From Syncephalis fuscata (taxonomy: Eukaryota; Zoopagomycota; Zoopagomycetes; Zoopagales; Piptocephalidaceae), in NCBI GenBank assembly GCA_025786725.1, contig JAHLTZ010000070.1, positions 1 through 62,535 of the forward strand: 62,535 nt of DNA, written 5' to 3'. A program made the position numbers and the translations under genes. Each line of letters begins with the position of its first letter. The stretch's first letter is position 1. Of the stretch, positions 43,351-54,755 are shown piece after piece. The notes beneath the pieces were generated by a model. It was not told the origin of the DNA. It saw only the letters and a list, made by a program, of their open reading frames with translations, and did no database searches.

Positions 43351-44758
43351 ATGAAGTTATCTATTGTCGCTATCTGCACTATTGTCGTGGCTTTTATGGT
43401 CAATACAGCCACGGTGAATGCCAAACCAGCTCTAGTCCGTCGTGGTATGTTGCAATAACAGCATCTAATATTGCCATGCTTACCAATATCACGGCTAACA
43501 AATGCTGCTATTAGATGGTAAGCCGGGATAATGAATCAATCTTTAGCACTCATTGTATACTATTATCCGTATGCTAAACATCTTAAAGATATTTAAGCAG
43601 TTGGTAAGCTTTAAACAACAATAGTTACTGGAATTTAACTAACCATTATTTATTGATATACAACGGGTAAACTAGCGTCGTTGGCTAAACGTAAATCACA
43701 TATAACAGTAAATAAATATTACAGCTATAATACTAATACATTGAAACATTATCGATAGGAGGTAAGCTACGATGAAATACTTGTTTAGTTATTTAGCTAA
43801 ATGCTGATGGTATTTATTAAATGGCAGGATATGGTAAGTAGCACTATGCATTTATTATCTATGTATTAACTATATACTATCTATTGTGTATATTTATTGC
43901 TGATAGGTGTTCGTAAGTAGCATTTTATACTAAATAGCTATGCATTATCTAAATCTATGTGTCTATATATTTAATACTAGCAATAAGTGGTAATTAGCAT
44001 TGCAAATAGATTAGATATATATTAACCAAATTTATACATTTTAAATGAAATAATAGATGGTGGGTAGTAAGCATACGATTTAGCCGTGTATTAATTAAAT
44101 GTTATTTGCTATGACCATTCGATAATATTGATAGGACGTAAGTAGAGTATTACAAACCGATTAACTAAACACTAAATATATACTATTTGCTTTATAATAT
44201 AACAACACTGATAGTTCGTAAGTGGTATTGCATACTAATTAACTACACACTAATTAAATATTGTATAATCTTTGTATTCAATCTAATCAATAGGACGTAA
44301 GTTATACACATACTATTTCGCTGTATGTTAACCAAATTATGCATTGTGTATATTTAATAATACTAATAGCAAGTAAGTGGCATTGCATACCAATTAGCTG
44401 AACATTATTTAAATGCTGTGTATTTTTGTGTTAACTATTTAATAGAAAGTAAGGGGTATTATATATCAAAGGTTTATGCATTAATCAAATATTGCATGCT
44501 GCGCGTACTTAACAACAATATTAGGATGTAAGTAATATTGTAATTCAATTATTTATGCCCTAATTAGACGGCACTTTTGGGTATCTTATTAATTAATATT
44601 AATAGTCAGTAAGTTGTATTGTATATTTATTGGCTATATATTAACTAAATACTACGTGCTGTGTACATTTATTAATTAATAGTTGGTAAGTGGTATTGCA
44701 CATTAATTAGTTATGTGCTAACTATAATCTATTGTTTTATATATTTTCCACAGCTTAA
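43351..44758 (+). CDS. Micro-exon secreted-peptide gene (locus A): signal peptide exon plus 15 micro-exons
   Basis: Exon 1 (43351-43444, 94 nt) encodes a signal peptide (MKLSIVAICTIVVAFMVNTA...VNA) and a short propeptide KPALVRR, then a GTATGT donor in phase 1. Micro-exons between AG and GT: ATG 43515, TTG 43601, GAG 43759, GATATG 43828, GTGTTC 43907, CAATAA 43981, ATG 44057, GAC 44135, TTC 44215, GAC 44294, CAA 44370, AAA 44446, GAT 44525, TCA 44606, TTG 44683; the last exon begins at 44754. Introns are 66-83 nt except one of 155 nt. Joined in phase, the micro-exons read DVGGYGVPINGLRPKRFIA and stop at TAA 44756-44758. Every micro-exon is a multiple of 3. CAATAA could be CAATAAGTG (other donor), and ATG at 44057 uses a weak GTGGGT donor. 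The RR before the array looks like a Kex2-type cleavage site, so the mature peptide may be wholly micro-exon encoded. Function unknown; effector, pheromone-like or antimicrobial roles are all possible. Expression and splicing are inferred. Confidence 0.65.
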
Positions 44759-45372: not shown

Positions 45373-46286
45373 TTCACCGATCTACTATGTTGTTTGTTTC
45401 CGTGCATTTGACGCTGATCCACAAAGTATACTTACTTGGAACCAGTATCAGTGTTTACAGTAGTAATGCGTGAAGGTATTATTTAATCTATCAGCAACCA
45501 ACACCACATACACGCAATGTATTGCGCCGTATTCGACAACTGATTGATTATGTTAATATATCGCCCGACTGGATCAATTATGCACTTATGACGATATAAC
45601 TGATGGATTTGCACCACTTATTGGCAATCTGCAACTAGAAGTGGATAGTATTGATGAACTAGTACTGATTCTAAAGGAATCAGAGCAAAGTGATATGTTG
45701 CGTCGAATTGGACATGCTCGAAAAAGGTAATGACATCAATGCGACTTTTTGGTAGTAAAGCCAATGTGATGCGTGGATTAATTAAACGATGCAATGATTG
45801 GGCTGGTGATGAAATTGAATTATATCTTGGTGATATTCAAGATATTTATATGTATATTTGATATATGAATATAATAGTAACACTATGACATAGATCATTT
45901 AATTACAATGTTGCAGAATGTGCACATTACGAAAAGATTATTGCTCGTGCACATAGCAATTATTTGGCACAGATCAGTATTGAGTTGACACAGTCGCCCA
46001 ATGCTACCAATGATGTTATGTCAAAACTGACAGTTCTTGCTACTATTATAGTGCCAATGAACGTTGTTACTGGTAAGTTAGAATGCATATGTAGTAGCTA
46101 TTAGTTTAACCAATTTGTTTACAGGTTTATGGGGAATGAATGTGCAAGTACCTGGTCAAGATGCTGAGGGGCTTGCATGGTCTTTGGAATCATCGGTGGC
46201 ATGGTAATATTAGGTATTACTTATACGTGTATATGCGACGCAATAAGTTCTTTAATTATACTATAGACCAAAATATCGAATATTAA
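45373..46286 (+). pseudogene. Mnr2/Alr1-type CorA magnesium transporter fragment, 5'-truncated and frame-broken
   Basis: Translated in shifting frames, the segment reads IYYVVCFRAFDADPQS, YLEPVSVFTVVMREG, QQPTPHTRNVLRRIRQL, PDWINYAL, DDITDGFAPLIG, EVDSIDELVLILKESEQSDM, MRLFGSKANVMRGLIKRCND, LYLGDIQ, YEKIIARAHSNYLAQISIEL, MSKLTVLATIIVPMNVVTGL, and then WGMNVQVPGQD with the GMN signature, ending in the last membrane helix. This is the order and spacing of fungal Mnr2/Alr1 proteins. The N-terminal third is missing upstream. At least seven -1 shifts are needed (near 45433, 45481, 45590, 45726, 45920, 46182, 46229), each by one base in a run of 2-4. One intron donor is AT instead of GT (about 45842). 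Truncation argues for a pseudogene; the lack of visible missense damage is odd for one. Confidence 0.72.
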
Positions 46287-47939: not shown

Positions 47940-49085
47940 AGTGTGGGACAGAATGGGAATGATATAGGTAAATGGTGGATATATGCATACTGGATAACGA
48001 ATCTATGATGACGAGTATTTGATGACTGATGTCACTCACCACCCATCATCATGTTCAATAGATTGGGCGTTATTAAATATTAGTCATTTGTCCCCCAAAA
48101 AAGCAATAAGTGTGATGATGTGACGATTAAATAAAACTCACCACTTGTCCCCATGTTCAATAGAGTGAATGTGCAGTGCAATTGCGCGAATGTTATTAAA
48201 TTTAGTCATTTGACCCCCAAATCACACTACATGTAATAATGTAATGATTAAATAAACAATTATAAAATATATATATTGTTATATACCATTATATGACGGT
48301 GTAAGACGGCGTAAGACGGTATAAGACGTACGCTGCGTACCGCTCCGTACCGCGGCGTACCGCTCCATAAGACGGTGTAAGAAGGTATAAGACGGCGTAA
48401 GACGGCGTAAGGCGGTGTAAGGCGGTATAAGACGGTGTAAGACGGTGTAAGGCGGTATAAGACGGCGTACCGCTCGTACCGCGGCGTACCGCTCCATAAG
48501 ACGGTATAAGAAGGCGTAAGACGGCGTAAGACGGTATAAGACGGCGTAAGACGGTGTAAGACGGTATAAGACGGCGTACCGCTGCGTACCGCTCCATACC
48601 GCTCCATACCGCTCCGTACCGCTCCATAAGACGGTATAAGCCGGTGTAAGGCGGTGTAAGGCGGTATAAGAAAGTATATATCACTATACACCACTATATA
48701 CCACTATATACCACTATATACCATTATATACACTATATACCATTATATACCATTATATATCACATTATAGCTTTTTTTAACTAAAATCGTTTATTGCTTA
48801 GTGTGATTTGGGGTCAAATGACTTTTTTTTGTAACATTCGCGTAGTTGAACTACATTTTCGTTCTATTGAACATGGGGACAAGTGGTGAGTTTGATTTAA
48901 TCGTCGCATTATTACATTTATTGTGATTTGGTGGTTAAATGACTATTTTTAATAACGCCCGATCTATTGAACATGATGATGGGCGGTGAGTGACATCATC
49001 ATCAAATGCTCATTATTGTAGCTTTATTATCCAGTATGCATATATCCACCATTTACTTGCATTATTTCCATTCTGTTTATGCTGT
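47940..49085. mobile_element. Foldback-like element with about 300-bp inverted arms
   Basis: Within unit 1, the left arm (47940-48250) and right arm (48780-49085) are inverted copies. Shared blocks include GGTGGATATATGCATACTGG, a GATGTCACTCACC block, CATCATCATGTTCAATAGA, CACTTGTCCCCATGTTCAAT, a CGCGAATGTTA-like block and TCATTTGACCCC. The arms flank the minisatellite. The same element recurs in unit 2. Single diverged arms occur at 16.6, 56.6 and 58.8 kb. No transposase seen. The structure fits a foldback element or a non-autonomous terminal-inverted-repeat element. Confidence 0.6.
48294..48670. repeat. 10-bp compound minisatellite, copy 1
   Basis: On the minus strand it alternates two 10-bp families: CTTANNCCGT (NN = TA, CA or CG) and GGTACGNNGC. 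Because the unit is 10 bp, all three minus frames stay open, which explains three overlapping ORFs that are not genes. Runs of one family switch to the other about every 40-60 bp. Confidence 0.9.
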
Positions 49086-50516: not shown

Positions 50517-50910
50517 TGACGGTGTAAGACGGCGTAAGACGGTATAAGACGGCGTACCGCTGCGTACCGCTCCGTACCGCGGCGTACCGCTCCATAAGAC
50601 GGTGTAAGAAGGTATAAGACGGCGTAAGACGGCGTAAGGCGGTGTAAGGCGGTATAAGACGGTGTAAGACGGTGTAAGGCGGTATAAGACGGCGTACCGC
50701 TCCGTACCGCGGCGTACCGCTCCATAAGACGGTATAAGAAGGCGTAAGACGGCGTAAGACGGTATAAGACGGCGTAAGCGGTGTAAGACGGTATAAGACG
50801 GTATAAGACGGCGTACCGCTGCGTACCGCTCCATACCGCTCCATACCGCTCCGTACCGCTCCATAAGACGGTATAAGCCGGTGTAAGGCGGTGTAAGGCG
50901 GTATAAGAAA
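50517..50910. repeat. 10-bp compound minisatellite, copy 2
   Basis: Same two 10-bp families in nearly the same order as copy 1, with a few unit gains and losses, for example an extra CTTATACCGT unit and a one-base-short unit near 50777. This shows ongoing unit turnover within the tandem array. Confidence 0.88.
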
Positions 50911-52650
50911 GTATATATCACTATATACCACTATATACCACTATATACCACTATATACCATTATATACCATATATATATACCATTATATATCACATTATA
51001 GCTTTTTTTAACTAAAATCGTTTATTGCTTAGTGTGATTTGGGGTCAAATGACTTTTTTTTGTAACATTCGCGTAGTTGAACTACATTTTCGTTCTATTG
51101 AACATGGGGACAAGTGGTGAGTTTGATTTAATCGTCGCATTATTACATTTATTGTGATTTGGTGGTTAAATGACTATTTTAATAACGCCCGATCTATTGA
51201 ACATGATGATGGGCGGTGAGTGACATCAGTCATCAAATGCTCATTATTGTAGCTTTATTATCCAGTATGCATATATCCACCATTTACTTGCATTATTCCA
51301 TTCTGTTTATGCTGTACACTTTTATTTTATTAAATGTTGTTGTACATTGTTATACAGTATATTGGCCACACTCTATCGGTTGGCGTTGTCCATTCGACTC
51401 TAGCTTTATAGTTGAATTGGCCCTTCATTACGCTTTTTCTGCTAATGACCATATTACACAGTCACAGTTGGCATATTGATAAAGTTAACAGTAAATTAAC
51501 GAATATATATACTGCAAATCCGATTGGTTCTGCGTACTCGCATGACAATTCTGGCTATAATAAACCAATAAAATAAAATGTCTAAATATTTATTGTTTTT
51601 ATTTAGAATTGTATACGCATATCATAGCAATATTGGTCAAATATTGGTGAAAATCGTTAAATATAAATATAAATTTGTTTATTTATCGCTATAATTTGTT
51701 TATTATGCTAGTTTGTCGATTGGTGTATAGTATACTGGCTGCTGGCTGCCAATCTGGCTTATTCTAGTGCAGTCATTGCAGTCATTGCAGTGATTTCAGC
51801 TAATGACCACTCAGTATGGTCCTTGCAGGTCCTTACTCGTATATCAGCTGGCGTATTTTGTTTGTTTTACGCCGCGTATGCATCGATTGCATTGCCCGGG
51901 TTGTTTCTGGCTATTGAGCTATGTAGTGGTACGCTTTATTCGTTCTATTTCACTCATATTGGCCTCAATCTACACAGCACGCCACTACATCACTTCCGTT
52001 TTTTGTACCACCTTCCTAATATGGAGTATTGCCGTGACTCGGTTTAACATTCAACTCCAGAGCCCGTAGTAATACAGCCACCCATTGGGCCATTTCCGGC
52101 TGACCTTGCCATTACTGTGGATACGCATTGTTTTGCTTGATCAACACCAAAGCCATTGCTAATTGACAATTGCCGGCTTGTCTAGCAGACGGTTACAATA
52201 ATTCGATTTGTTAATAATTAGCCTGGTGCAAAAATAAACATGATTTTGGATAGAGGAAAGATGGGCGATTATAGAAAACATAAAAAGCGGTGTCAAAGCT
52301 ACAGTGTGTATAGTGGAATGAGTGGAAGGAGCAAAGTATATTGCCGCGTATAAACAATAAAATGTGTCTAGTGTATCGTAGAATGATACATAGTAGTGTG
52401 GGACAGAATGGGAATGATATAGGTAAATGGTGGATATATGCATACTGGATAACGAATCTATGATGACGAGTATTTGATGACTGATGTCACTCACCACCCA
52501 TCATCATGTTCAATAGATTGGGCGTTATTAAATATTAGTCATTTGTCCCCAAAAAGCAATAAGTGTGATGATGTGACGATTAAATAAAACTCACCACTTG
52601 TCCCCATGTTCAATAGAGTGAATGTGCAGTGCAATTGCGCGAATGTTATC

Positions 52651-53414: not shown

Positions 53415-54755
53415 TTAGATTACCAATGCTAATGCCTTGAAAGTGTTGGTTATTTTATGTTTATAAGCAGATATAACACATATCACATGATTAATATATA
53501 ATTGGTTAATATACAACGCCACTTACAACCTATTAACACGAGTTATTAGACACACACAGTGCGTGTCATACAATTAATATATATTTGGTTAATTAAAATT
53601 TTACTTACAGCCTATTATATAGGTCATTAGATGCACACAATGCATAGTATATGGTTAGTATATACCTAGCTAATATACAATACCACTTATGACCTATTAA
53701 TACAAGTTATTAAACACACAATGTATATGGTATACACTCAATATACAAATATTTAATATTCAATGCCACTTACGACCTATTCATATGAGTTATTAGACAC
53801 GCGATGTGTGTCATATGATTAACATATAGTTAGTTAAATTAATAAAAATCACTTACAAACTATTATATAGATTATTAGGCACACACGATGTGCGGTATAT
53901 GATTAGTATGTGGTTAGCTAATATGCAATGCCACTTACGAGCTATTATATAGGTCATTAGACACACACAATGCGCGGTATATGATTAGTATCTAGTTAAC
54001 TACTATCCAATGTCACTTACGTCCTATCAACACAAGTTATCAAACACACAACATATATAATATATGCTTAGTATATAGTTAGTTGATATACAATATTACT
54101 TACGACCTATTAATATGAGTTATTAGGCACACGGTACGTGTCATATGATTAATATATAGTTGGTTGATTAAAAAATTACTTACAAGCTATTATATAGGTC
54201 ATTAGACACAAGCGATGCGAGGCATATGATTAGTATATAGTTGGCTGATATAAAATGCCACTTACTAGCTAGCAAAGCCAATTTAGCAGCATAAACATTG
54301 TTTAGTTAACTAAAAACTAGTTAATGTTATTGCAATATACCTCCTATTAATATAGATTTGGTATATTAGCATTCTGAATGTGGCTTTTATTTATTGTTTT
54401 ATGTTAAACGTACTCTTAGCTAATAATTCTATATTTATTTATTTTAATTAATGAGCAATGGTTAGCCAAAACATCAATAATCATGTATGCTCAAAACTTA
54501 CGGGCTATTTACGTGTGTTATAGCATTCATTATGTGTATAACAACATATAGTGAGTACCAAAACAATGATCCATCATCACACTTACCACCTAGTACCATT
54601 GTTAGTTAAACATAATGTTAGTAAACATAACACTTGAATATTTATTGCGATTGCAACATACCACGACGGGCTAGAGTTGGATTAGCATCTACCATGGCTG
54701 TAGTGGCCACAAGAGCCATGATAATGGTGCAAACGACGGCAATAAAAAGCTTCAT
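53415..54755 (-). CDS. Micro-exon secreted-peptide gene (locus B): signal peptide exon plus 13 micro-exons
   Basis: Exon 1 (54755-54662, 94 nt, ending in phase 1 at GTATGT) encodes a signal peptide (MKLFIAVVCTIIMALVATTA...VDA) and propeptide NPTLARR. Micro-exons in transcript order, lower coordinate given: GTG 54587, CCC 54502, GAG 54341, CTA 54266, CTT 54184, GTC 54104, GAC 54021, CTC 53939, TTT 53857, GTC 53774, GTC 53691, GCT 53609, GTT 53527. The introns between CTT and GTT are 77-80 nt, each TAG-NNN-GTAAG. The eleventh unit has donor ATAAGT and may be skipped; removing it keeps the frame. In phase the array reads GARATCRPLCRRC, with Cys residues unlike locus A. The last exon is ambiguous: acceptor CATTAG gives four more residues and a stop at 53415; acceptor TTTCAAG (exon from 53435) would give a longer tail. 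The first three intron lengths (72, 82, 158) nearly equal those of locus A (70, 83, 155), proving common descent. Confidence 0.65.

Follow-up and report, generated by a model that had tools for sequence, protein, structure and literature searches.

The locus at 43351-44758 of the window, meaning the whole stretch of 62,535 nucleotides analysed from contig JAHLTZ010000070.1 of Syncephalis fuscata, raises the question of whether a gene can spell out most of a secreted peptide by joining exons of a single codon, one after another. Exons as short as 1-3 nt have been described as rare cases; in this species, thousands of one-codon exons are seemingly spliced in order. Syncephalis, which belongs to the Zoopagomycota, is presented as a genus of mycoparasites in the passages cited (PMC10386755).

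The window gene and its family

The gene lies on the forward strand and begins with a 94-nt signal-peptide exon. Next come 16 tiny internal exons, of which 12 have 3 nt, two have 6 nt, one has 9 nt and one has 15 nt, and the last exon reaches a TAA after two bases; the 17 introns measure 66-83 nt (Table 1; slashes mark splice sites). The exons of this gene were picked by hand, whereas the family counts given below were made by script. The initial annotation had described the 94-nt signal-peptide exon with AG/NNN/GT units after it at intervals of 70-85 bp, and this arrangement was recovered; its count of about 15 exons, all of 3 or 6 nt, holds for 14 of the 16 found, the 15-nt and 9-nt exons departing from it. 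The joined frame is also open as had been claimed, ending at a TAA just inside the last exon (at 44758), and it reads MKLSIVAICTIVVAFMVNTATVNAKPALVRR-DVASLAKR-GYGVPISDGLRPKRFIA, a prepropeptide of 56 aa. Exon 1 ends in phase 1 at CGTCGTG/GTATGT, and the ASLAKR site has counterparts at the same place in two intronless paralogs, APLAKR in L057 and EPLAKR in L064. Regarding RNA families, no Rfam match was obtained in the window at gathering scores.

Table 1. Exons of the window gene and of the second family member in the window.
Feature	Position	Strand	Basis
Exon 1, predicted signal peptide + KPALVRR, 94 nt, donor GTATGT, phase 1	43351..43444	+	same-genome 31-aa homologs
Micro-exon ATG	43515..43517	+	AG/ATG/GTAAGC
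Micro-exon TTG	43601..43603	+	AG/TTG/GTAAGC
15-nt exon, with neighbours ASLAKR, second dibasic site	43676..43690	+	paralog matches
Micro-exon GAG	43759..43761	+	hand-curated model
6-nt exon GATATG	43828..43833	+	hand-curated model
6-nt exon GTGTTC	43907..43912	+	hand-curated model
9-nt exon CAATAAGTG, donor GTAATT, least certain call	43981..43989	+	hand-curated model
Micro-exon ATG, donor GTGGGT (weak call)	44057..44059	+	hand-curated model
Micro-exon GAC	44135..44137	+	hand-curated model
Micro-exon TTC	44215..44217	+	hand-curated model
Micro-exon GAC	44294..44296	+	hand-curated model
Micro-exon CAA	44370..44372	+	hand-curated model
Micro-exon AAA, donor GTAAGG	44446..44448	+	hand-curated model
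Micro-exon GAT	44525..44527	+	hand-curated model
Micro-exon TCA	44606..44608	+	hand-curated model
Micro-exon TTG	44683..44685	+	hand-curated model
Last-exon coding start, CT then TAA, 3'UTR after	44754..44758	+	hand-curated model; L071/L073 terminal exons
Exon 1, second family member	54662..54755	-	sequence match to family
Array of 14 micro-exon units (13 of 3 nt, 1 of 6 nt), ~80 bp apart	53527..54589	-	TRF 83-bp repeat 53487-54265

The window gene is one member of a large, recently expanded family of predicted secreted peptides in Syncephalis fuscata. At least 150 homologs of the 31-aa exon 1 are present in the same genome (the best 150 of 305 candidates scored), and the exon-1/intron-1 junction CGTCGTG/GTATGTT is found 183 times with at most one mismatch, against 33 times in a reversed control, with 95 exact junctions among the matches listed. 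Meanwhile, the strict unit AATAGNNNGTAAGT (AATAG/NNN/GTAAGT) occurs 3183 times genome-wide and only 28 times in the reversed control, whereas versions with four (54 against 50) or two (59 against 58) exon bases stand at control level. Copy errors of a satellite were considered as the origin of the constant 3 nt and rejected, as the spacing of the units varies (mostly 73-86) but the exon length hardly does, and as the 2- and 4-nt versions do not rise above the control.

A chain search, allowing exon lengths of 1-18 nt and using splice-site weights trained on 3-nt units, recovers 517 exons in the sequence that follows 34 first exons of the family, compared to 41 in reversed and 29 in block-shuffled sequence, where the lengths are scattered. 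In these 34 genes, 480 exons of 3 nt are obtained by this search and 329 by strict words (together with two of 2 nt and eight spacings of 27-28); therefore, the total of units in the genome is probably above 4000. When the near-copies L049, L012 and L037, the unit-less L066 and false calls within a conserved 3'UTR word are removed, 30 genes remain, with 499 detected internal exons and a median intron of 78 nt. Exon length is divisible by three in 492 of them (469 of 3 nt, 22 of 6 nt and one of 15 nt), and the seven others were counted in a search whose site weights were learned on 3-nt units. The donor is GT after 487 of these exons and GCAAGT after 12 (GC-AG introns, NNN/GCAAGT), with detection favouring strong sites. 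In L002 (extended as L072), the run comprises 45 exons in succession, all of 3 nt.

In addition, inverted copies of micro-exon genes are seen on contig C1, between 475-478 kb and 531-534 kb and also between 575 kb and 610 kb. Among the matches listed, most of their triplets agree when one copy is read in the opposite order, probably as a result of recent segmental duplication.

Reading across the joined exons

Exon 1 imposes a phase in which every codon is split, its first base lying in one exon and the remaining two in the next, about 80 bp away. Among 438 such junction codons a single stop is found, compared to 15.05 (sd 2.98) when the exon order is shuffled within runs, and none of 10000 shuffles is as low, the lowest having five. 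With distinct exon pairs counted once, one stop remains in 318 against 10.8 expected, and the other junction frame has 33. The triplets read alone, in phase 0, have stops in only 2 of 518, and therefore stops alone do not exclude a frame in which each triplet is its own codon.

A second line of evidence comes from the intronless paralogs, which serve, to judge from their sequences, as natural cDNAs of the arrays. There are 19 distinct intronless members (L034 and L051 being nearly alike), with the same leader, the RR and a contiguous, mostly Cys-rich peptide; the hydrophobic leader and the RR after it are conserved in those aligned (14 of the 19), and secretion is predicted from this leader. 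One deposited relative, P0128, is without the RR. The joined peptides of 31 micro-exon runs reach a summed score of 833 against the 19 intronless paralogs, while exon-order shuffles give a mean of 645.6 (sd 19.2, with 686 as the highest of 60) and the other phases give 558 (phase 0) and 607 (phase 2). At the nucleotide level the joined sequences reach 302.5, while shuffling gives 271.8 (sd 5.4). The residue make-up correlates with that of the intronless peptides at 0.83 in the exon-1 phase and at 0.19 and 0.06 in the other phases, near-copy genes being included both here and in the paralog matching. Moreover, the Cys content is 12.5% in the joined peptides and 11.7% in the intronless ones, and the base make-up at the three positions, taken in the exon-1 phase, is near that of the codon positions of the intronless relatives.

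The correspondence can also be followed in single genes. A stretch spanning nine neighbouring exons of L033 joins to GAAAACTGCAAGAAAACTGGCAG, which agrees at 20 of 23 bases with uninterrupted sequence of the intronless L080. In the terminal exons of L071 and L073, the stop and the 3'UTR known from the intronless genes can be recognised by eye (for example AATAATCGATGG...CATCAGCATTG). Beyond the family itself, a Pfam search with six intronless members gave nothing above the cut-off, and two protein searches, which need shared words of five residues, found 4 and 13 proteins (the 13 including the 4), all of them named Syncephalis fuscata.

These results bear on a quite different explanation of the locus, in which the array is a non-coding satellite lying in one long intron, exon 1 is spliced to the last exon, and the AG/NNN/GT sites are inert or act as recursive-splicing steps. 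The units are tandem repeats, and both public models placed on micro-exon loci (P0122 and P0129, on L093 and L013) skip the arrays: each splices exon 1 and then fails, P0122 reading across the first micro-exon and on into the intron that follows it, and P0129 joining an AG just past the first AG/CCG/GT unit and continuing into the intron. However, stops are avoided across the joined exons, the match to the intronless paralogs depends on both exon order and phase, the amino-acid make-up agrees with the intronless peptides, the 6-nt and 15-nt exons are multiples of three as well, and the divergence described in the next section is specific to the exons, all of which makes a satellite highly improbable.

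It could also be that the micro-exons are real but serve mainly for alternative splicing, single-codon skips giving many in-frame peptide variants per gene. Almost all units are multiples of three in a single phase, and a skipped unit should therefore keep the frame; the schistosome micro-exon genes are likewise described with alternative splicing, as far as the cited passages go (PMC10526429). On the other hand, the units detected, in a search with a preference for strong sites, have consensus donors almost without exception, as would be expected of constant inclusion, and the full-length joined peptides look like the intronless ones. Alternative splicing as the main function is thus considered unlikely.

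Divergence of the triplets and origin of the arrays

Change is far more rapid in the exons than in the neighbouring introns. In the nearest unit pairs, with at most two mismatches in 68 flanking bases (70 pairs, those between near-copies being left out), the difference per site is 0.205 in the exon and 0.014 in the flank, and in the 117 pairs with 3-5 flank mismatches it is 0.50, 0.36 and 0.64 at the three exon bases (e1, e2 and e3) against 0.055 in the flank. The exon differences of the closest unit pairs are then about 9-15 times those of the flanking intron, a ratio inflated to some degree because the pairs were chosen by their close flanks. Whole-array alignments, where the pairs are unselected, place exons below introns in identity for 175 of 179 pairs of genes; these pairs have genes in common and are not independent. 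As examples, identity is 58% in exons, 95% in introns and 98% in splice motifs for L002/L004, 53% in exons and 88% in introns for L041/L042, and 56% and 88% for L028/L029; L005/L006 and L005/L008 have almost no exon excess (80% in exons, 81-82% in introns). The four pairs lacking an exon excess are three copy-like pairs and L006/L037, and in the copy-like pairs all 66 exon bases agree, the intron identity being 98-99%.

Taken together, these patterns are read as diversifying selection on the residues and not simple drift. The e2 base is the third codon position in the exon-1 phase, and none of the single changes hits it with 2-3 flank mismatches (0 of 19) or with 3-5 (0 of 34); this does not extend to every class, as 2 of 12 do so with 0-2 mismatches and 15 of 49 with 6-8. 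The 9-15-fold contrast also raises the possibility of a hypermutation targeted to the exons, which is not favoured, as the copy-like pairs have identical exons next to introns of 98-99% identity and as e2 changes least in most classes.

The same bases bear on the frame in which each triplet would be its own codon (phase 0). This frame was tried because GCA, GCG, GCC and GCT exons co-occur, stops are few and, as seen by eye, conserved 3'UTR-like sequence is open in this frame in some genes. It predicts silent change at the third base, yet e3 changes at a rate well beyond that of the introns and leads the three bases in three of the four distance classes, the exception being the closest one, with e1 at 0.24 and e3 at 0.21. 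In addition, its peptides are unlike the intronless paralogs (558 against 833) and exon 1 ends in phase 1, and phase 0 was therefore rejected.

Regarding the history of the two gene forms, a tree built on 154 columns of exon 1, with 49 genes of which 32 are of the micro-exon and 17 of the intronless type, needs 10 changes for the intronless form, compared to 14.1 with shuffled labels, and at least three of these changes are forced by well-supported (starred) branches. Intronless copies thus stand at several places among the micro-exon genes, which fits repeated loss of introns, for instance by retroposition of spliced messages; swapping of leaders between genes may also lie behind the pattern.

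The opposite direction is conceivable, with intronless ancestors in which introner-like elements inserted introns at every codon, instead of a duplication of units. The array introns are alike within and between genes, as such insertions would make them, but adjacent units of L072 closely resemble each other and often share their triplet, the outcome expected of tandem duplication, and the exon-1 tree fits repeated loss of introns. Moreover, among the matches listed for contig C1, the one contig considered here, 53 of the 56 strict 3-nt units sit in family arrays, without spread into other genes there. An origin by inserted introners is accordingly regarded as doubtful compared to the duplication of whole units.

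A proposed mechanism and its relation to known systems

The unit structure, the exon length in multiples of three, the translation-like constraint across the joins, the homology to intronless genes and the fast change of the triplets are read from the sequence itself. On these grounds, the arrays very probably belong to a family of secreted peptides whose mature part is spread over tandem units of about 80 bp, each made of an intron and one codon of exon in phase 1. The inclusion of the micro-exons in the mRNA and in the peptide is a prediction with strong but indirect support. The view that the window gene encodes a secreted peptide through in-phase single-codon exons, with about one mature residue per exon, had been put forward in the initial annotation, and it gains support from the exon length, the avoidance of stops across junctions, the intronless paralogs and the exon-specific divergence.

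In the mechanism proposed, the first exon would supply the signal peptide and a dibasic RR processing site, with a second KR site in some members. The pre-mRNA would be spliced stepwise from the 5' end, one codon being added per step, since a distance of 3 nt hardly leaves room for two spliceosomes. Each splice would join 3 nt and bring a strong GTAAGT donor beside the growing 5' exon, resulting in a ratchet along the array. The signal peptide would then be removed, and the peptide would be freed by Kex2-type cutting after RR or KR, which we take to be Kex2-type processing motifs in these peptides. At the level of the gene, units would duplicate or drop out, and residues would be gained or lost singly without a frame-shift.

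The peptides themselves would take part in an arms race, their most likely role being that of effectors or toxins directed at the Mucoromycota hosts. As Pfam gives no hit, this role is suggested by the leader, the processing sites, the Cys content and the fast change; it is the step held with the least confidence, the balance tipping just slightly in its favour. We lean a little more firmly towards the wider reading of a modular peptide-building gene, in which units are added, lost or altered singly, the spliceosome would ratchet codon by codon, selection would act mainly on the codon, and spliced copies would have been repeatedly frozen in intronless form by retroposition. If this modular reading is true, secreted peptides could evolve residue by residue and tolerate indels within a host-parasite arms race.

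Among known systems, the micro-exon genes (MEGs) of Schistosoma are similar in architecture, forming a secreted and variable family with a conserved signal peptide and numerous short internal exons whose lengths are for the most part divisible by three, according to the passages cited (PMC10526429). Their exons are mostly of 15 bp (range 6-81 in the text of the paper and 3-81 in its abstract), with 10-20 per gene and introns of 0.1-5 kb (same passages), whereas in the S. fuscata family 469 of 499 exons have 3 nt, introns are of about 78 nt, up to 45 exons stand in a row and the units form a tandem repeat. The two families belong to different kingdoms, and they are likened by architecture, with no claim of kinship. 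The bicycle genes of aphids, as portrayed in the passages cited (PMC9168663), encode fast-evolving secreted effectors, the CYC-motif proteins, in about 17 exons on average, many of them small and in one phase. These exons start at codon position 2, as do the internal exons in S. fuscata, where the phase is given by stop avoidance and homology. Those passages make no mention of single-codon exons or of a tandem array (PMC9168663), and no membership of the fungal family among the bicycle genes is claimed.

That spliceosomes can include 1-3 nt is seen in the 1-nt exon of Arabidopsis APC11, the 3-bp exon of Drosophila homothorax and the 1-nt exon of Fusarium CYP621A, as reported in the passages cited (PMC4674806, PMC7392893, PMC12940212); however, these are single exons in otherwise ordinary genes, compared to the arrays of S. 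fuscata. Recursive splicing at zero-nucleotide exons is also described there as a stepwise removal, in which the 5' splice site is regenerated (PMC4674806). It leaves nothing per step, while the arrays would leave one codon, if their splicing does follow a stepwise order. An exact-phrase literature search for arrays of 3-nt exons gave no match, and none was found in titles and abstract openings among the matches listed, a scope that most subscription papers and non-PMC preprints fall outside. The arrays would offer a probe of the minimum exon size for the spliceosome and of a possible stepwise splicing, as well as an unusual built-in gauge of selection, a codon with an intron on both sides being repeated thousands of times. 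As gene finders miss the micro-exon genes, as seen for P0122 and P0129, similar families may hide elsewhere.

The second family member in the window, located on the minus strand (Table 1), has ATAAGT in place of the GT donor in the unit with the exon at 53693-53691, and no AG is present where the alignment places the beginning of the gene's last exon. Because of this non-GT donor and the missing terminal acceptor, it may be a decayed copy. Between the two members, two similar compound minisatellite blocks, composed of GACGGTGTAA, CGTACCGCTC and TATATACCAC units, are placed at 48295-48763 and 50518-51000, about 2.2 kb apart. In addition, a stretch read by eye as LWGMNVQVPG is found at 46125-46200 on the plus strand, presumably resembling the GMN motif of CorA-type magnesium transporters.
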